Position numbers and translations under genes: made by a program | Shown: positions 35,498 through 51,943 of the stretch, one piece after another | Position numbering within the stretch: the stretch's first letter is position 1 | Layout of the letters: the number at the start of each line of letters is the position of its first letter | NCBI GenBank assembly: GCA_009780315.1 | Contig: WRAH01000013.1 | Location: forward strand, 1 to 64,000 | Direction of reading: 5' to 3' | Origin: Defluviitaleaceae bacterium | GTDB taxonomy: Bacteria; Bacillota; Clostridia; Lachnospirales; WQUN01 | DNA: 64,000 bases | Notes under the pieces: model-generated | Databases searched by the model: none | Told to the model about the DNA's origin: nothing | What the model saw: only the letters and a program-made list of their open reading frames with translations

Positions 35498-37894
35498 CTA
35501 AACTTTTTCCCATACCCTTGCTGTAAGCACGGTCATGTCGTCTTTTGGTATTTTTCCGTAACGACGGGTGGCTTCCGCTAGAATATGGTCAGCAAGGTCT
35601 TGGGGGTTGGCGTATCTACAGGTGGACAGTGCTGGTTTTAACCAATCCTCTTCTGCGTCGGTAATGCCATCTGTCACCATGACGATGATATCGCCGTGTT
35701 TTAATTCCCGCTCGGTTATTTCAAGGTCTACATCATTCAGCATTCCAATAGGGAGAGATGATGAGCGAATAACAGAAACCCGCCCATCACGCAACAAAAA
35801 TGTTTCTGCCGCGCCAATTTTAATAAATTCTGCTTGACCTGTATATAAATCAACAGAGCAAATGTCCAAGGTAGAAAATGATTCTTCATTACTTTTGAGT
35901 ATAAGCACAGAGTTTATCATACGCACTGCCAGTTCCTTATCAAATCCGCTTTCAATAAAGTCTTCAAGCAGTCCAACCGTTGCCGCACTTTCTCGTCTAG
36001 CCCGTTCGCCACTGCCCATGCCATCAGATAGTACAAGCAAGGAAGAGCCGTTTCTAAGCTCCATGGCAGAATAACTATCCCCCGATGGGCGGGAGTTTTT
36101 TGCCCGATGGGCTACGGCACTGGTAATTTGTAATTTTTGTTCCTCTATAAAACGGGTATGACAAGTTGCACCGCGAATTTCACACTCATTTCCTTCTACG
36201 CGCATTTTACGTTTTAGCACAGAGTTTAGCACAGGCAAAATTTCACGCACACAGGATTTTTTGCCGTGGCATGGGCTGTGGTTTATCGATACACGATATT
36301 TTCCCTTGTTGTCTTCAAGAACAATCACACTGCCAACTTCAATTTTCTGCTTGAGCAGTGCCATAATCATTTCTTCCTCTAGCCCCTCATGGAAGCGTAG
36401 TGACATATCTATTTCATCAGATAAGCACTTTACAATGCCTGATACACCATGTAATTGCTGGCTGATAAGTTCACGGCTTTCTGCAATGCGGTTATGCCAG
36501 CGCAAGTCATTGCGATACAGGTTGAAAATTGAATTTAACTCATGCAAAAGTGATTCAGGCGACTTACATTCCTTACGAAAAGCGTCACTCATGTCCGTAA
36601 GTTTTGCACCACCGTTTGCAGAACAGGCATGAAGCATGGAAAATATTTGTTGATGTGTATTATATAAATCTTCTTCCCAGCACCATTCTTGACTGGGGCA
36701 AGATGCACAGGCGCGGCTTGAAAGGTCGTCAATAAGTACAGCAATATCATGTTTATTCAATCCTGTTTTAGGCTTAGAAAGTCCGCTGAATGTATCTGCC
36801 AATTTTTCAAATGCAGAGGAAAATCTATCTAAACGGCGTGTGGTTTCTTCCTTTATCTTATCCATGTAATCGTCTGCACTATCCAGCACAGGATTGATGG
36901 CAGACGCTACATTAAAATAAAACGATTGAGGTGTAAGCACAAATGCCAGCCCGCCAGCAATAAGGGCATAGATAAAAGAAAACCCAAAAGAAGACCGTGC
37001 CAGCATAAACAGTGCAACCCCGCCAATGATACCCACCCCTGCAATAACCCCAGGGCGTGTCCATGTTTTGCTGATATTTTTAGCAAAGCCGCCGCCCAGC
37101 CCTGCCAGCCCAAGAATAGCCGCCCAAGAAATATCCCAATACCCTGCAAGATGTAGAAAAAAGCCCATAAGCATTCCTGCCGCCGTTGCCATAGAAGCCC
37201 CGCCGCGATATGCAACAATACATAGAACGTACACACAGAAGAATATTCTAAGGGGCATTGCACCAACATAAATATCAGATGCGCCAGCAATGACACCAGA
37301 TAATATGATGGTAATAGAAGCAATATCCTCCCCAGAAAGCAAATTGGCTCTGCGCCGCCGTCCTGTAAGAATCACATGGGCGCGCTTTAAAACCAGTGTG
37401 AGTGTCCCAACAACAATCGTTTCTAAAACTGCCACCGTCAAAAGGAATGGACTCATATCATAAAGTACTGCCACAGTAACGCCTGACACAAAAGTAATTG
37501 CCGCCGCCGCCAGCCCCACATAGGGCAGTTTCAACCACCCCCGTTGCTCGCCCATAAGCTTTGTGCCTATAAAATAGTATAAACACATCAGCCCTACTGC
37601 CATTAAGTACCGCATCGTCAGCAAGTCACCCATACGTGTAAAAAGTCCTAATGAGACTAAAACCGCTGTAAAATAAAACCCTTTTGTATTGCCCATAAAC
37701 GCCGCCAAAAACGGCAACGCCAACGGGTTTATAAATGTAAAAACCGTTGCTCGTCCAATAAAAAAGCCAAACGCGCCAATAATTAGCGATGCAATTTCAT
37801 TTTTGCCAACGCGGGCACGGGGGGGATGTTCAGGCTTTGAAGTCTTTAATCCCTCTCTGGAAGCACGAGAAGGCACTCTTACAGGCATATCCAT
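35498..37894 (-). CDS. spoIIE: Stage II sporulation protein E (PP2C phosphatase)
   Basis: 798 residues from ATG 37894, which has GGTGG eight bases upstream; a GTG four codons earlier is also in frame. The N-terminal half (about 40-330) has roughly ten transmembrane helices. A central cysteine-containing region (CASCPSQEWCWE) and the C-terminal PP2C-type phosphatase domain (about 590-795) follow. The phosphatase holds SGDSYSAMEL, LVLSDGMGSGERA and VTDGITDAEED with the metal-binding aspartates. SpoIIE dephosphorylates SpoIIAA to switch on sigma-F in the forespore. This is the best indicator that the organism belongs to an endospore-forming lineage. Confidence 0.95.
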   Translation of the reverse strand: MDMPVRVPSRASREGLKTSKPEHPPRARVGKNEIASLIIGAFGFFIGRATVFTFINPLALPFLAAFMGNTKGFYFTAVLVSLGLFTRMGDLLTMRYLMAVGLMCLYYFIGTKLMGEQRGWLKLPYVGLAAAAITFVSGVTVAVLYDMSPFLLTVAVLETIVVGTLTLVLKRAHVILTGRRRRANLLSGEDIASITIILSGVIAGASDIYVGAMPLRIFFCVYVLCIVAYRGGASMATAAGMLMGFFLHLAGYWDISWAAILGLAGLGGGFAKNISKTWTRPGVIAGVGIIGGVALFMLARSSFGFSFIYALIAGGLAFVLTPQSFYFNVASAINPVLDSADDYMDKIKEETTRRLDRFSSAFEKLADTFSGLSKPKTGLNKHDIAVLIDDLSSRACASCPSQEWCWEEDLYNTHQQIFSMLHACSANGGAKLTDMSDAFRKECKSPESLLHELNSIFNLYRNDLRWHNRIAESRELISQQLHGVSGIVKCLSDEIDMSLRFHEGLEEEMIMALLKQKIEVGSVIVLEDNKGKYRVSINHSPCHGKKSCVREILPVLNSVLKRKMRVEGNECEIRGATCHTRFIEEQKLQITSAVAHRAKNSRPSGDSYSAMELRNGSSLLVLSDGMGSGERARRESAATVGLLEDFIESGFDKELAVRMINSVLILKSNEESFSTLDICSVDLYTGQAEFIKIGAAETFLLRDGRVSVIRSSSLPIGMLNDVDLEITERELKHGDIIVMVTDGITDAEEDWLKPALSTCRYANPQDLADHILAEATRRYGKIPKDDMTVLTARVWEKV

Positions 37895-43660: not shown

Positions 43661-46600
43661 ATGAAAAAACAACTATTAAAAACAGCGGCGTTCTTCCTTG
43701 CGCTGGTTATGGCGGCTGGGTTTATACCTGCAAGAAATGCTTATGCATTTCCCATACCTCAACCTGCCACGCGGCTTCCTGTCAGTGAAATTACAATAGC
43801 CCCCCAGCCAGAGCCAGGTATAGAAACAGGGCAAGGGCCATATGCTATTGAATTTATTTGGACTCAACCCAATGCAGGGCCAAGTGACAACCGAGGTGCA
43901 GGGGGAAATGCGGCGACCCTTGGCGTGCATGGCGGCGACCCTGAAACAGGTGACCCCAATGCCACATGGACACGGTACGCGTCTCGCTATATCTTTAACT
44001 TTGCTAACCGTACCCTTGGCACAACATTTCCAGAGGTGGTACTACGGCGTACAGATGTAGGCGTACAAGAGCGCGCCAATGCTGCCGCACCATGGGGTGC
44101 AGTCACGCCTTATGGTGTGGGCAATGAATTGCCCCCTGGTCATCAGCTGAGATGGCAAACCACCCGTGCGTTTCAAACCAGTAGTTTTTATGAAATTTCA
44201 ATAGAACCACAGCATTTTACACCCATTTGGATTCCACCTGTTCTAGTGGATGGAACGATACAATCAGGCACAAATGTATGGACCTATGACATTGCCAATT
44301 GGGGCAGTGCCGCCAATAATCAAAGCACACCCATGATTTTTATGAGTGATATAGAGCTGGTGCGTGCAGACGGCGGCGGCGGCGAAATTGTTATTGAATG
44401 GTTAAACCCTCTTTGGAATGGCGCAAATGTTTTTGATAACTGGAATATTACAGTGCTTAACGCAATCACAGGGGGCAATGTGCTTTCACGCCCTATTTTA
44501 GACCCTGCCAACGATATTGAAGTACTTGACGGTGGAAGACGCTTGCGCTACACCATTGTCAGCAATAATCTTCAAATTGGCGGAAGTTATCACGTGCGTA
44601 TAGAGCCAATGATTGGGACACAAAATGCCCGTACACTCAGTAGCATCACCATGCCAGGCGATGCCAGAACCTTCTTTTTTGCATATCGCGCCAGCGGACA
44701 ATTCCCTTATCAAACAGAAACACCAGTACTCATGATTCCAACTCTTAATCTTGTTCAAGAGGGTGAAAACTTCATCCGCTTGCTGTGGGACCGTATGGCG
44801 GCCGCGGCTGTAGGACGTATAGAGATTGAACAATGGGCAGATGCCAATGAACCGAATCCTTCCCCAGATGTTAATGATATTACAGCCATGGGGCGGCGTA
44901 CGGTGATTGCATCCATTCCCGCGCCCCAAGCAACGGTCATTACCCAATGGCCTGTGGGTATAATCAACCCACCAAGACCCATGGCATGGAGTATTGTTGT
45001 ATTTGACACGAATAATGTTCCCCTTGCCCGAAGCAATATTGTGCATTGGCGACCGGGTGAAGCACATTTCACCCCCTATGCGCCAGAGCTTGAACCCATT
45101 GTAGGGCGCACTATTGCAGGAACAGGAAGTTTCGACCTTGTGTGGCGTGCATTTACCCGCCCTGCATATACCGACGCAGAGGAAGCGTTGTTAAATACAC
45201 CCCCTCACTCAGATTTCAATAATGTACTGGTTGACCATGAAGATTATAGACGGCATTTTATTGATGATGAAATTCGCTTTCATATTTTTGTGGCAAACAC
45301 TTGGGCTGATTTGCAGAACATGCCCCTAGATAATCCCACCATCAATATTCCTGCAAACCTTGGAATGCTTATTCCTGCGGCAAACTCTCCTGTAGAGGGT
45401 GTTCCGTTTTACCGCATGGAAGGTATATCTGTCTTTTCAAGACCTGACGGCGCAGGTGGATTTACACATAATCATGCTGTCCAGCCGAACGAAACGTACT
45501 TTATACGAATCATAGCCATGCGCGACCGTGTTGGGTTGGATGCATTGCCGTCACGCCCATCGTATGGCACAGTGGTTATTCCACCGCCAGAAGATGGTAT
45601 TATCACCCGTCCAGAAATGATTGCCGCACCGCCATTTACAGGCTCTGCCAATGGGGCAGGACAGCCCCCTGAACTTTTCCTAGAATGGCCATTGCGTTTT
45701 TTAGAAATTTATGATACATCGGCAACCAGTCCAGAAGGGCGCGGATGGTATGCGTCTGCGGGTATTCGCAACGGTGATTTGGCTTTTGGCAGACGTGCAG
45801 GACGGCTTGCCGATGTTGAAAGATGGCGTGTGCTTAACCAAATGCTTTCAACTGAAAACAGACGCGTACTTGAAGCAGATAGAGAGGGCAATCCTCTAAA
45901 CACTGCCGCCAGTGTGAACACATTTTTACAAAGTGCATGGACTGATATTTCCAGCCATTTAGGTTATACAGGCACAACGGCTTCGGCTGGAGCATTGCGT
46001 ATTCAAGACTTATATCTTTACAGCTATCAAATTCATGTGGTCACTTATGATGAATTGATGACTTTTGGAGCTGACATTGAAACGGCTTTTGAAAACTATC
46101 GTGACCAGATGGTGGCATCAGACTGGAGCGTGCCTTTTAGACCCACACCTGATGACAATGGTATCATGCGTCATAGATTCACAAACATGATTGCGGCAGG
46201 GGCAATTCAGCCAAACACTACCTATGTCGTGTTAATGCGCCCTGTTGAAAGCAGAAATTATGGGTTACATGCATTTTATCCATCGTATACCATTATAACC
46301 ACCCCTGATGACAGCGAAGCCGCAACACCCACCCCAACAACACCTGTATTGTTTCCCCATGTGCCTATTGGAATGGATCACATTACTGTACGTTGGCGCA
46401 GACAGTCAGGCATTCAGTATGAACTCCGTTGGAGTGAAAACTTGAGCGACTATCCAACTGGCGGTACGTTGATTGCGTGGGAGGATATTGAGGGCGAATA
46501 TGTATTGTATCCAGACCCTACTGCTGGGCCATTTATGGCATTGACCATTGATGGACTGTTCCTTGATACGCGTCACTATGTATGGGCGCGGGCAGTCAAT

Positions 46601-48358
46601 GCAGATGATGTCACTTCTGGCTGGTCTAACCCGGTGGATATGCGCACCCTTGATATTTCACCGCCGGCACCGCCTATTACCCTTGGTCTTGCAGGGCAAA
46701 ACTTGCTTGACAGATACAATAGAGAAAATGATGGGGAGTATCGCTCTGTTGAAGCCGAGGCAATCACCGTATCATGGTCACGTATTATTGCGGATATGCG
46801 CAATGGTGACGAAAAGGCAACAGGCGGCAGTGCCACGGGTGGAACGGCTGTTGATTTAGACATTCCTGGGCTTGAAAATATTTATGTTGTTCGCTTTTCC
46901 GAGCTTCAAGCCAACCGTGATTTTTATGTTCGTGCAAGAACCGTATTGACGGTTCAGCGCGGCGCGCCTGGTGAAACAGAGATGACCTATAGCTATATTG
47001 TTCAGCTTGCGGATAATCCTGACTTTCTTGATGCGATTACTTTTGAAATTCCAGCCCTTGAACCTGTTGATTCAAATAATATGAGAAGGGCATATTCGGA
47101 CTGGGTAACGATTGAAACAAGAACCGCCCCGTCAGATGATGAATTTGACGGCGCATACCGTCCAGACCAATTCCCATTGCCTGACAGAGATTTTGAAGTC
47201 ACGTACACCCCAGGCTCACAAACTTTACAATGGCGTTTTCGCACAAATCAAATTGGTGCAGACGGCAGACCAGACCAAAATGTTGACCAACGGTTTATCT
47301 CAAGGCTTATCACCGAGCGGACATTTATTTACACCATTGACATGTCACAGTATCATATCAACCCGACTGTGCCGATTTCCAACAGGGAAATTATCGTTCC
47401 CCTTTCAATCATCCGCGCCTTTAATGAGCGTCAGATTACACTGGAAGTCAATGCAGGCGATTTGATTTACCGTATACTACCAGGTGCATTTGATACGGCT
47501 GAAATGCGCAACTTACAAATGGGAACTGGAAGTTATGTTCACATGACCATGACATCAAACCCAACAGACATGCCAACCCTTGGTACAAATCTTGCCCATG
47601 CTATGCCGCCCCAAAGGCTGGCAGTGAGGGCGCAAACCCCACAACGTAACGTCACCATGACAACATTTGCCCGCCCCATTGAAATTATTTTGCCAATGGA
47701 TAACCATGTTTCACCTGCCGGCACAACAGCCGCGCTATTCCACAGCGGCGCAGGTGTGCAAGGCTGGCAAGACATGAACGGTCATTTCTCATTTGCAAAT
47801 AATCAATTAACTGCAACAGTAAGTAGTCCAGGAACATTCTCTGGTGTGACACGTCATGCACCACCTACACAGGGTACAGGCGGCACAACAACTGCACCCG
47901 TGGCTAATCCAGCCTTAACAGGTGTAACATCACGGCTGAATATTACAGACTTGCATACCTTTAATCCAAACCAAGGGGTATCAGCCAATGCTTTTAACAA
48001 CATCATTCATGCAGTGGCACATCGTCAAACCACTGCAACCATGGGCGGGACGCTAACACCTGCACAAACCCAAGCACTACAGCGCAGTAATCTACTTGCA
48101 CCCAATGTGCTGATCAGAGAAACTGCAATTGACATTCTTGTGCGCCTATACGGCTTACAAACTGGGCAAGTACTCACCCCCATGACTGCCGAAACATCCA
48201 TTCCCGGCATTGGGAACGCGTCACAAGAACTTAGAAGAAATATTCGCATTGGAGCAGATATCGGTTTCATTTCTGGTCCGCTAGACCCTCAAGGAAATTT
48301 AACCATGGGCGATTTAATGCATATGTTAAACATCCTTATGATTGACGCTGGATGGTAA
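43661..48358 (+). CDS. Giant exported surface protein 2 (FN3-like modules, SLH-like C-terminus)
   Basis: 1565 residues with a signal peptide (about 1-29, cut near AYA-FPI) and AGGGAGG upstream. Repeated beta-sandwich segments recur about every 120-200 residues; the clearest fibronectin-III-like ones begin near 890 (HITVRWRRQSGIQYELRWSE) and 1000 (SPPAPPITLGLAG). The end (about 1430-1565) has RETAIDILVRLYGLQTGQ and NIRIGADIGFISGPLDPQGN, again a degenerate SLH-like pattern, as in its upstream neighbour. The pair probably arose by old duplication and is co-expressed. They could be S-layer or sheath components, or adhesins. A strong hairpin follows the stop. Confidence 0.75.
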   Translation: MKKQLLKTAAFFLALVMAAGFIPARNAYAFPIPQPATRLPVSEITIAPQPEPGIETGQGPYAIEFIWTQPNAGPSDNRGAGGNAATLGVHGGDPETGDPNATWTRYASRYIFNFANRTLGTTFPEVVLRRTDVGVQERANAAAPWGAVTPYGVGNELPPGHQLRWQTTRAFQTSSFYEISIEPQHFTPIWIPPVLVDGTIQSGTNVWTYDIANWGSAANNQSTPMIFMSDIELVRADGGGGEIVIEWLNPLWNGANVFDNWNITVLNAITGGNVLSRPILDPANDIEVLDGGRRLRYTIVSNNLQIGGSYHVRIEPMIGTQNARTLSSITMPGDARTFFFAYRASGQFPYQTETPVLMIPTLNLVQEGENFIRLLWDRMAAAAVGRIEIEQWADANEPNPSPDVNDITAMGRRTVIASIPAPQATVITQWPVGIINPPRPMAWSIVVFDTNNVPLARSNIVHWRPGEAHFTPYAPELEPIVGRTIAGTGSFDLVWRAFTRPAYTDAEEALLNTPPHSDFNNVLVDHEDYRRHFIDDEIRFHIFVANTWADLQNMPLDNPTINIPANLGMLIPAANSPVEGVPFYRMEGISVFSRPDGAGGFTHNHAVQPNETYFIRIIAMRDRVGLDALPSRPSYGTVVIPPPEDGIITRPEMIAAPPFTGSANGAGQPPELFLEWPLRFLEIYDTSATSPEGRGWYASAGIRNGDLAFGRRAGRLADVERWRVLNQMLSTENRRVLEADREGNPLNTAASVNTFLQSAWTDISSHLGYTGTTASAGALRIQDLYLYSYQIHVVTYDELMTFGADIETAFENYRDQMVASDWSVPFRPTPDDNGIMRHRFTNMIAAGAIQPNTTYVVLMRPVESRNYGLHAFYPSYTIITTPDDSEAATPTPTTPVLFPHVPIGMDHITVRWRRQSGIQYELRWSENLSDYPTGGTLIAWEDIEGEYVLYPDPTAGPFMALTIDGLFLDTRHYVWARAVNADDVTSGWSNPVDMRTLDISPPAPPITLGLAGQNLLDRYNRENDGEYRSVEAEAITVSWSRIIADMRNGDEKATGGSATGGTAVDLDIPGLENIYVVRFSELQANRDFYVRARTVLTVQRGAPGETEMTYSYIVQLADNPDFLDAITFEIPALEPVDSNNMRRAYSDWVTIETRTAPSDDEFDGAYRPDQFPLPDRDFEVTYTPGSQTLQWRFRTNQIGADGRPDQNVDQRFISRLITERTFIYTIDMSQYHINPTVPISNREIIVPLSIIRAFNERQITLEVNAGDLIYRILPGAFDTAEMRNLQMGTGSYVHMTMTSNPTDMPTLGTNLAHAMPPQRLAVRAQTPQRNVTMTTFARPIEIILPMDNHVSPAGTTAALFHSGAGVQGWQDMNGHFSFANNQLTATVSSPGTFSGVTRHAPPTQGTGGTTTAPVANPALTGVTSRLNITDLHTFNPNQGVSANAFNNIIHAVAHRQTTATMGGTLTPAQTQALQRSNLLAPNVLIRETAIDILVRLYGLQTGQVLTPMTAETSIPGIGNASQELRRNIRIGADIGFISGPLDPQGNLTMGDLMHMLNILMIDAGW

Positions 48359-48489: not shown

Positions 48490-48600
48490 TTAGGAAATTT
48501 TGCTGGTTTCATCTTCATGTTTGTTAAGTTTTAGTCCTTCTGCGACTAGCGTAACAGATTTTAAGATAAATTTTCGTTCAATTGTGTTTTCCCTGCTACA
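48490..48600 (-). pseudogene. Unidentified C-terminal coding remnant
   Basis: An open minus-strand frame of about 36 residues ending in TAA contains ERKFILKSVTLVAEGLKLNK and a charged tail. It has no start and abuts the relaxase remnant. The pattern is protein-like but not recognised; it may be the tail of a mobile-element gene. Confidence 0.25.
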
Positions 48601-48629
48601 TAGGCTTTCAGACGGGTTATAAAAAGGTC

Positions 48630-49324
48630 TTCATAGCTGCTGCCGCTTACCGAGCGGGCGAAAAAATCACAAATGAACAAACTGGAATCATTCACGATTA
48701 TACAAAAAAACAAAGTGTTGCGAAATCGGTAATTATTTTGCCAGAAAACGCACCCGAGGAATATTATAATCGCTCCACACTTTGGAATACAGTTGAAAAA
48801 ATGGAAAAGACTTCTAATAACCAGTTGGCTAGAGAGATTGAATTAGCATTACCCAAGGAACTATCATACTTCCAAAATACATCACTTGCTTTTGAATATG
48901 TAAAAGAAAATTTTACGAGCAAAGGCATGGTTGCCGATATAAATTTTCACAACATGAAATCTGATAATCCCCATGTTCACATCATGCTAACAATGCGACC
49001 ATTTAACGAGGACGGTACTTGGGGCGATAAGCAAAAGAAAGTTTACCACCTTGATAAAAATGGTGATAAAATTTATGACCCTGTAAAACGCACTTACAAA
49101 TGTTCCAAACAGCAAACAACCGACTGGAGCGAACGCCACAAAACCGAAGAATGGCGAGAATCATGGGCTGGACTATACACATTACTGCCATGCGTGAAGC
49201 GGAGCAACAACGAAAGCGTGATGAAGTTATTAGGCAACGAGAAAGCCGTGACCGTTATAATGCGGAGCGTAGGGTTAAGCGGTTGGAGAATCCGAGTAGG
49301 GGTAAAGATGAACAGAGTTTATAA
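48630..49324 (+). pseudogene. MobA/MobL-type relaxase remnant, truncated and frameshifted
   Basis: The frame from about 48630 to 49180 matches MobQ-family relaxases: AAAAYRAGEKITNEQTGIIH near the start, and the metal-binding NPHVHIMLTMRPFNEDGTWG. The first 20 or so residues, which hold the beginning of the catalytic domain, are missing and no proper start is present. After HKTEEWRESWAG the frame breaks. A Glu/Arg-rich tail (REAEQQRKRDEVIRQRESRD) continues in another frame to a stop at 49324. So the N-terminus and the centre have been lost. It is a relic of a mobilisable plasmid or element. Confidence 0.75.
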
Positions 49325-49382
49325 AAGCAAGCGGGGCAAATCTCACTATTTCCGCATGAGTGTATATATGGTATACTACCCA

Positions 49383-49440
49383 TGCGAAAAAATTTTTTGC
49401 GAATTTCTGATTAGGACTTTACCCCGAACGATTTTTCGCA
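49383..49440. promoter_or_regulatory. Inverted repeat upstream of the serine hydrolase gene
   Basis: TGCGAAAAA at 49383-49391 and its reverse complement TTTTTCGCA at 49432-49440 bracket a 40-base AT-rich segment. A TGG-TATACT extended -10 lies just upstream (about 49368-49376). It could be an operator pair or a folded leader. Confidence 0.4.
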
Positions 49441-49500
49441 CATAATGAAAGGATAATGATGTTTGGAGGAAGAAATGCATTTTTACAAATCAACAATAAT

Positions 49501-49511
49501 GGGGGGGGGGG
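49501..49511. repeat. Run of eleven G at the serine hydrolase translation start
   Basis: Eleven consecutive G lie six bases before the ATG at 49518. Two upstream ATGs with better ribosome binding sites (49459 and 49475, GGAGGA between and before) lie in the two other frames. Losing one G would fuse the 49475 frame to the hydrolase; gaining one G would fuse the 49459 frame. This geometry is that of a phase-variable contingency tract, or an assembly homopolymer error. Confidence 0.7.
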
Positions 49512-49517
49512 CGACTG

Positions 49518-50993
49518 ATGAAAAATCGCAAAACAAGTAAAATCGTAACTTTGCTAATGTTGGTATGCTTGCTCATGCCAACATTAGCGATGTTTGCAAG
49601 TCAAGCGATAATAAGCAACGAAGCCGAGCGGCATATATTAGGTGAACTTAACAGAGCCAATATTCCAAAAGCCACTATTGCCGTTATCCAAAACGGCGAA
49701 ACATCGTACATTCTCAAAGATAGCCAGCATGACACCTTATTTCAAATAGGTTCTGTTTCAAAGTCTTTCACAGGCTTTGGCGTGTTGCTCTTAGAAGATA
49801 TGGGGTTGCTTTCTGTGAGTGACTCCGTAAATCAGCATTTGCCGTGGTTTACTGTGAATTATAACGGTGTGCCTGTGCCGCATGGGGATATAACCATTTA
49901 TACACTTTTGCAGCATTCAAGCGGATTTACGAGTGATGAAAGACGTTTTCCGGCTTCGTATGTTACTGACTTAAACAGATTTATATCGCAAGTTACAGGT
50001 GCAGAGCTTGCGTTCTACCCCTCTCATGACCATGTGTACGGTAATATAAATTACGTTATCTTGGGGCTTGTTATCAAATCTGTATCGGGGCAAAGCTATG
50101 ATGATTTTATGACCGAGAGTGTTCTGTACCCACTTGGGCTTTATAACACATTTGCGAATGTGGAACGTGCAAGAGCTACAGGGCGTACAGTTAGCGGTCA
50201 TCGCTATGGCTTTTTCCGTCCAAGAGCCACCGATGCATATTTTCCTACCTTGTCAATTCCGACAGGCGGCATATATTCAAGCATATCAGATATGGCTCGT
50301 TGGGCAGGGATTCATCTTGGCACAATCGAGATAAATGAGCAATTCGCAAGGATTGTACAGCGTTCGCATGAAAATAATCACACCGCACAAAATCCTTTTG
50401 CCGACACAAATTTTCATCCAGGGGCTGGATGGAATATTTTGCATGATGACAGCGACTTTGGCAATCTCGCCTTTGATGATATGAAAATAATGCACGGTGG
50501 CTCAGGCTTTGGAAATATCGCATATATCGGCATAATTCCCGAACGTGATATGGCTGTTATATTTCTCTTGAATCATAGGCATATGAACGTGCCGGCGTGG
50601 ATTTTTATGATTTGGGATGCTTTAGATGGCGTATTTAATCCAATAGGAACTGACCTTTTTGCAATATTTGATATAGTTTTCGTTGCCATAACTGCCGTGG
50701 GCGTTTTGTTTATTGGTATGTTTGTGCGTCTTATTGTAAAAGTAAACAAACAACTGCCCAACGAATGGAGAGCAAAGCCTACATTAAAGATTAGATGGCT
50801 TATTGTTCCTATATTTTCGATTATAGGCGTACTCATTTTTCACGTTGTCATGCCTATGCTTTTCATAATGCCACTTGGAATACTTTTACTATTCTCGCCT
50901 GCAAGTGCAATCACGGCAATTATAGCTATGTGGGTAATGGCGGTGTACTCTTTGTTTTCATTGTGGACAAAAGCGTTCGTTAATCAACGATGA
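49518..50993 (+). CDS. Exported serine hydrolase (beta-lactamase/PBP4*-like) with membrane tail
   Basis: 491 residues. A signal or anchor segment lies at about 8-30. The hydrolase domain of the beta-lactamase superfamily (class C-like) follows: S79-VSK82 as the SxxK motif (FQIGSVSKSFTGFG), a YGN motif in HDHVYGNINYVILG, and HGGSGFG near 330 in the position of KTG. The last 110 residues hold about four transmembrane helices, an arrangement seen in clostridial serine hydrolases of unknown substrate. Roles in peptide or wall metabolism, or resistance, are possible. The ATG overlaps the stop of a short upstream frame (TGATG), and the 11-G tract precedes it. Confidence 0.85.
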   Translation: MKNRKTSKIVTLLMLVCLLMPTLAMFASQAIISNEAERHILGELNRANIPKATIAVIQNGETSYILKDSQHDTLFQIGSVSKSFTGFGVLLLEDMGLLSVSDSVNQHLPWFTVNYNGVPVPHGDITIYTLLQHSSGFTSDERRFPASYVTDLNRFISQVTGAELAFYPSHDHVYGNINYVILGLVIKSVSGQSYDDFMTESVLYPLGLYNTFANVERARATGRTVSGHRYGFFRPRATDAYFPTLSIPTGGIYSSISDMARWAGIHLGTIEINEQFARIVQRSHENNHTAQNPFADTNFHPGAGWNILHDDSDFGNLAFDDMKIMHGGSGFGNIAYIGIIPERDMAVIFLLNHRHMNVPAWIFMIWDALDGVFNPIGTDLFAIFDIVFVAITAVGVLFIGMFVRLIVKVNKQLPNEWRAKPTLKIRWLIVPIFSIIGVLIFHVVMPMLFIMPLGILLLFSPASAITAIIAMWVMAVYSLFSLWTKAFVNQR

Positions 50994-51073
50994 ACAAGTC
51001 GACATAGATGGTAGACTATATAAAACGGTCTGAAACACTCACCCAAATAGTTGCAAAGAGAGGGCGATATGCC

Positions 51074-51943
51074 ATGAAGAAAAACGAAATTGAAAACTTA
51101 ATCATAGACTACTCCCTGTTAATGGATTTGAGGGTAGACTTTGCGTTTAAGACTTTTGTAGAGGGCAATCCCGAAGCACTTATATCATTACTCAATGCCA
51201 TTTTTGCCAACGCAAAAATCAAACGTGTTGTAAAAAATGTACTCTTGAAAAATCCCAACTTGGACAAAAAATCTATTGAAGATAAGCTATCCATTTTGGA
51301 TGTTCGTGCGGAGTTAGATGATGGCACGGACATCTTGATTGAAATGCACCTACATGGAGTAAGCCAGATTAAAGCAAAAATAATTCGTTCATGGGCGAGA
51401 GCCTACAGCGAGGAACTAGAAGCTGGGCAGAAATATACATCACAGCCCCCAACCGTAACGATTGCATTTGTGGATGGAGCAGTTGACCCACTTGTAAAGC
51501 CCGAAAATGCTACGGACAAAATCCATAGGGTATGTATGATAATGGATAAAGATGACAGTGCTGTGTTCACCGAAGCAATGGAACTGCACTTTATCAATAT
51601 GAAAGCCTTTGCAAAGGCTATAAATGAAGCCAACAGCATAAACATAAAAGAAGCTACAGACGATATGTTTGTGTACTGGCTTTCTGTAATAACAGAAAAA
51701 GAAATCGTGAACAAGGACATTATAGAGAACGCTCGTAAGAAGAAGGAGGTTATCCATATGGCGGTATCAGCAATAGCAAGGCAAAGTGAAGATAAAATCA
51801 TGCGGCAAGCCTACCAACGCAGGAAAGATGAGATTTTTTTTAACAACATGAATGAGCAACGAGCAGAGCAAGCAGAAGCAGAAAATGTTATACTCCGTAA
51901 GGAAATTGAAAAACTCCAAGCCCAACTCGCAGAGAAAAAATGA
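51074..51943 (+). CDS. Rpn-family recombination-promoting nuclease/putative transposase (PD-(D/E)XK)
   Basis: 289 residues from ATG 51074; an in-frame ATG 66 bases earlier is less likely because family members begin near here. The N-terminal region has RVDFAFKTFVEGNPEALISL and the catalytic strand pair LDVRAELDDGTDILIEMHLH typical of PDDEXK_2. The end is a coiled-coil (AEAENVILRKEIEKLQAQLA). E. coli Rpn proteins promote RecA-independent recombination; many clostridia have dozens of copies. It is a full-length copy with its own terminator. Confidence 0.85.
   Translation: MKKNEIENLIIDYSLLMDLRVDFAFKTFVEGNPEALISLLNAIFANAKIKRVVKNVLLKNPNLDKKSIEDKLSILDVRAELDDGTDILIEMHLHGVSQIKAKIIRSWARAYSEELEAGQKYTSQPPTVTIAFVDGAVDPLVKPENATDKIHRVCMIMDKDDSAVFTEAMELHFINMKAFAKAINEANSINIKEATDDMFVYWLSVITEKEIVNKDIIENARKKKEVIHMAVSAIARQSEDKIMRQAYQRRKDEIFFNNMNEQRAEQAEAENVILRKEIEKLQAQLAEKK

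Follow-up and report, generated by a model that had tools for sequence, protein, structure and literature searches.

A candidate slippage-prone G tract at the start of a gene for an exported serine hydrolase in a poly-G-rich clostridial family

Phase variation by poly-G tracts has been studied mostly in pathogens, and the known clostridial phase switches are DNA inversions. Poly-G contingency loci are described in Campylobacter, Neisseria and Helicobacter (e.g. PMC2823697, PMC5953494), and runs of G or C were generally under-represented in a survey that covered 99 genomes (PMC2831843). In the sortase-pilus switch of Bifidobacterium breve, a Sec signal and a surface-protein body lie in two reading frames that are joined by a G9/G10 tract (PMC9187656). 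This switch is of the ON/OFF type because the second ORF has neither a Shine-Dalgarno sequence nor a signal peptide of its own. Gardnerella carries genus-wide G/C tracts upstream of surface-protein genes, and their length variation has been verified between colonies (PMC11287997). A recent review describes inversion switches for Clostridioides and names no Clostridia with poly-G switches (PMC11868660), and no paper connecting termites or Defluviitaleaceae with homopolymer phase variation was found within the open literature searched. The mechanism discussed below is already known, and it is the lineage that appears to be new for it.

A tract of 11 G residues (49501-49511, forward strand, as are all features of the locus) lies just upstream of the ATG at 49518 of a gene for an exported serine hydrolase (49518-50993) in the window, that is, the whole 64-kb stretch of DNA that was analysed. 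No other homopolymer of the window is as long; the remaining G runs reach at most 7 residues, as at 37819, and runs of A or T at most 8, despite A and T being commoner. Two leader ORFs run into the tract from ATG codons that occupy the two frames not used by the hydrolase. At the assembled length, leader 1 (49459-49518; MFGGRNAFLQINNNGGGGD, then a stop) ends in the overlap TGATG (49516-49520), in which its stop codon TGA (49516-49518) shares a nucleotide with the hydrolase start, whereas leader 2 (49475-49540) reads MHFYKSTIMGGGATDEKSQNK before its stop. On re-reading, the tract, both off-frame leader starts and the overlap lie exactly where the original prediction had placed them; a further ATG at 49499, which abuts the tract, had been missed. 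A GGAGGA begins at 49465, and its GGAGG (49465-49469) is a Shine-Dalgarno sequence placed 5 nt before ATG 49475 with a pairing energy of -9.3 kcal/mol. The position of a weak promoter-like site, TTTACC-17-CATAAT (49418-49446), is suggestive only, and the 14 promoter-like matches in the region against 7.8 expected are not a significant excess. If this promoter is real, GGAGG would be the first full Shine-Dalgarno sequence in the mRNA, and we infer that translation of a leader would start at 49475 in preference to 49459. The leader was not found with other genes or in relatives, and the exact leader has no match in IMG/VR.

The products were computed in silico for tract lengths from 8 to 14 G. 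With 8, 11 or 14 G neither leader is in frame with the hydrolase; with 9 or 12 G the leader from 49459 is joined to it, and with 10 or 13 G the leader from 49475 is joined, as is the ATG at 49499. The prediction that a gain or loss of one G fuses one or other leader to the hydrolase is thus confirmed. The alternative products would begin with MHFYKSTIMGGG or with MKNRK. Among the hallmarks of a homopolymeric (SSR) contingency locus are a G or C run of no fewer than 8-9 residues and a position at which single-base changes affect a gene; this run has 11 residues and is placed such that every change by one G alters the leader fusion. The most likely reading is that slippage-prone G residues form a contingency tract where the gene for an exported, membrane-anchored serine hydrolase begins, and we give this reading about an even chance of being correct.

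The hydrolase ORF from 49518 stays open at every tract length. Moreover, at all lengths from 8 to 14 the G run itself, 3-8 nt upstream of 49518, can pair with the anti-Shine-Dalgarno sequence at -10.7 to -14.3 kcal/mol. Homologues with 47-69% identity begin at the position equivalent to 49518, which is thus the ancestral start of the hydrolase. Because the tract supplies a strong Shine-Dalgarno sequence at all lengths and the start is ancestral, no coupling is needed at 49518, and the earlier claim that translation must start there by coupling through TGATG is not borne out. For the same reason the arrangement does not imply clean ON/OFF switching: in every phase the hydrolase retains its start and a poly-G Shine-Dalgarno sequence, and a switch would alter the leader and the level of the protein. 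Neither leader nor tract lies upstream of these homologues, so there is no sign of a conserved arrangement.

The Shine-Dalgarno pairing of the tract also opens a rival explanation, in which the run is only a strong Shine-Dalgarno sequence of the hydrolase that has grown by slippage and is tolerated in an untranslated leader, with the upstream ATGs unused and the length devoid of regulatory meaning. Strong pairing at all lengths just before the ancestral start may indeed make tract length irrelevant. Runs at the same Shine-Dalgarno position are found before a DUF3021-like gene of the same genome, a permease gene of the same genus and a flagellin gene of another genome (G011), where the names DUF3021 and permease come from sequence reading and not from a family search; and runs of at least 9 are about as frequent in the window's own genome as expected. 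Against this, GGAGG is perfectly spaced before ATG 49475, whose frame enters the tract, and a plain Shine-Dalgarno sequence would not require 11 G. We regard this explanation, the main rival, as possible but somewhat doubtful.

The 491-residue product has a signal peptide and a hydrophobic C-terminal part. It belongs to the PF00144 serine hydrolases (beta-lactamase/PBP-like), as seen from a match of 165.9 bits against a cut-off of 27 and from the catalytic motifs S79xxK82, Y174xN176 and H326xG328 (SxxK, YxN and HxG), which are invariant in the alignment of homologues. Among proteins of solved structure, S. aureus Flp and the membrane-anchored peptidase ClbP are closest to it. A class C beta-lactamase, that is, a resistance enzyme, was considered and rejected, with 76 bits for NF033085 being far under the equivalog cut-off of 415. 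Just upstream lies a gene for a MobQ-type relaxase whose C-terminal part is unmatched (48582-49445), and downstream an Rpn-type PDDEXK nuclease gene (51008-51943); given these neighbours, the hydrolase gene may be part of what is left of a mobile element. Farther upstream, a 1565-residue protein with a signal-like hydrophobic start (43661-48358) matches no Pfam or NCBIfam family.

Geometric extrapolation from the short runs predicts 0.0086 G/C runs of at least 11 residues in 64 kb of sequence and 0.39 in the whole 2.9-Mb genome of the window (G000). This genome holds four such runs, two of them at contig ends. The length of the tract therefore stands out within the window (P about 0.009) but is marginal for the genome, in which the two internal runs give P=0.06. 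Runs of at least 9 show no enrichment in the genome, with 9 observed against 7.3 expected. The two runs at contig ends, one of 15 C (L011, 9514-9528) and one of 23 G (L015, 3185-3207), are followed by low-complexity sequence, so the assembly seems to break down where G runs are long. Since reads degrade at such runs, the assembled length could be wrong; the true dominant length could then be 10 or 13, in which case one leader would be permanently fused and there would be no switch. Indel errors can also produce frame-broken genes in MAGs. However, the G11 tract is internal with clean flanks, and the tract would remain even if its length were misassembled. In the four-colour chemistry of HiSeq instruments, dark cycles are not written as G. 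Related MAGs come from the HiSeq 2000/2500 (PMC7024585), which also speaks against a wrong length. A wrong length seems unlikely to us.

The GTDB family of the window includes termite-gut MAGs named Defluviitaleaceae. Homologues of the hydrolase occur in three same-family genomes, G032 (WQSR01), G031 (WRGY01) and G033 (WQRQ01), all of them termite-gut MAGs, and the window's own genome is likely to come from a termite as well. G/C runs of at least 9 are present in 37 of the 38 family genomes. Runs of at least 10 occur in all 21 well-completed family genomes compared with 96 of 273 others of the order (P=1e-9), with medians of 6 per well-completed family genome and 0 elsewhere in the order. Such tracts had been called unusual in this kind of clostridial genome, which is true of the order but not of the family. 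The trait is not exclusive to the family, because a few other lineages are also rich in tracts (G053, G152, G081). G053, a member of another family of the order (f18), has the highest count of the order with 89 G/C tracts of at least 10, which may mark a further lineage rich in poly-G or else reflect faulty assembly. Loss of mismatch repair was rejected as a cause of the tracts, MutS1 and MutL being present in G000 and in nearly all relatives.

About 100 loci around tracts were taken from five genomes, which had been selected because they are rich in tracts, and were assessed by a simple ORF rule; tracts at contig ends (e.g. of 56 and 99 G) were left out as likely artefacts. Internal runs of at least 12 are above expectation in three of the five genomes. 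Of the runs of at least 11, 12 of 32 fall at the 5' end of a long ORF, against 23 of 166 for runs of 6-8 in the same DNA (P=0.003; window itself excluded), and the frame is broken in 5 of 11 cases against 5 of 72 (P=0.003). Among the five cases with a broken frame, at least two (L033 and L105) may be neighbouring genes, since different Pfam families lie on the two sides. Both enrichments support switching but do not prove it. The genes at tracts in the family encode polysaccharide pyruvyl transferase, AlgX, FkbM and TylF methyltransferases, glycosyltransferase 2, an RfbA-type transferase, an epimerase, flagellin and a methyl-accepting chemotaxis protein (MCP), and classical contingency loci involve genes of the same types.

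Apart from the Shine-Dalgarno position, tracts of relatives are placed in two other modes. In the frame mode, five paralogues of RCC1-repeat secreted proteins in one genome (G002) carry G9-G12 just past the ATG, within the signal-peptide leader; one is in frame and four are out of frame. These genes resemble the hydrolase locus in that the tract directly follows the leader ATG. Two TylF-type methyltransferase genes, from different genera, have a tract at the same place. In the promoter mode, four sites of the form TTGACA-N-G(7-11)-TATAAT in G002, with none in reversed controls, have a spacer whose length varies with the tract, and one of them drives a gene for a methyl-accepting chemotaxis protein. 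The promoter mode was seen only in G002 and was rejected as a family trait.

A stronger candidate for phase variation than the hydrolase is an adhesin gene of the same genome. A tract of 11 C on the coding strand (C2:190013; 3514-3524 of L009, G000:C2:186500-193500) precedes the adhesin body. The adhesin of 912 codons is Ser/Pro-rich, with pAdhesive_15 and a PQTG-type sorting tail; the tract separates the signal peptide from the body, which is out of frame at the assembled length. No orthologue was found in the same genus.

If the hydrolase tract is a contingency tract, replication slippage by one G would shift the gene among three forms. With 8, 11 or 14 G, the hydrolase would be translated by itself from 49518, the G run serving as Shine-Dalgarno sequence; with 10 or 13 G it would be fused to the strongly initiated leader from 49475, and with 9 or 12 G to the leader from 49459. 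Cells would then differ in the level and the N-terminus of the hydrolase, with no strict ON/OFF state. The tract, the frames, the products for each length, the Shine-Dalgarno pairing and the poly-G loci of the family are observed, whereas length variation in the population, translation of the leaders, and differences in level or export among the forms are inferred. Of the phase-variable switch originally proposed, the slippage-site anatomy at the 5' end of a gene for an exported protein stands and gains a family background. More tentatively, the family may possess a poly-G phasome acting through frame, Shine-Dalgarno position and promoter spacer, of which the hydrolase would be a three-state variant that is never fully off, its tract serving both as slippage site and as ribosome-binding site; we consider this whole picture rather doubtful. 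A clostridial family with poly-G tracts at surface-glycan, adhesin and flagellar genes would open phase variation to testing in the gut symbionts of insects, with phage or host pressure as its driver in place of mammalian immunity.

The locus and its counterparts in the family resemble those of Campylobacter, Neisseria and Helicobacter in tract length, in tract positions (5' end of ORFs and promoter spacer) and in the surface-glycan, flagellar and adhesin genes concerned. However, those bacteria are Gram-negative, whereas the tracts described here belong to uncultured Clostridia with MutS1 and MutL. Gardnerella is similar in its abundant G/C tracts and as a Gram-positive host associate, but is a member of the Actinomycetota. 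The B. breve switch shares poly-G slippage in a Gram-positive commensal of the gut, and the adhesin at C2:190013 is of the same build. In B. breve, length variation has been measured and the second ORF lacks a Shine-Dalgarno sequence and a signal peptide; in contrast, slippage at the hydrolase locus is putative, and the hydrolase, with ATG 49518, a poly-G Shine-Dalgarno sequence and a signal peptide of its own, does not show the split-signal arrangement of bifidobacteria.
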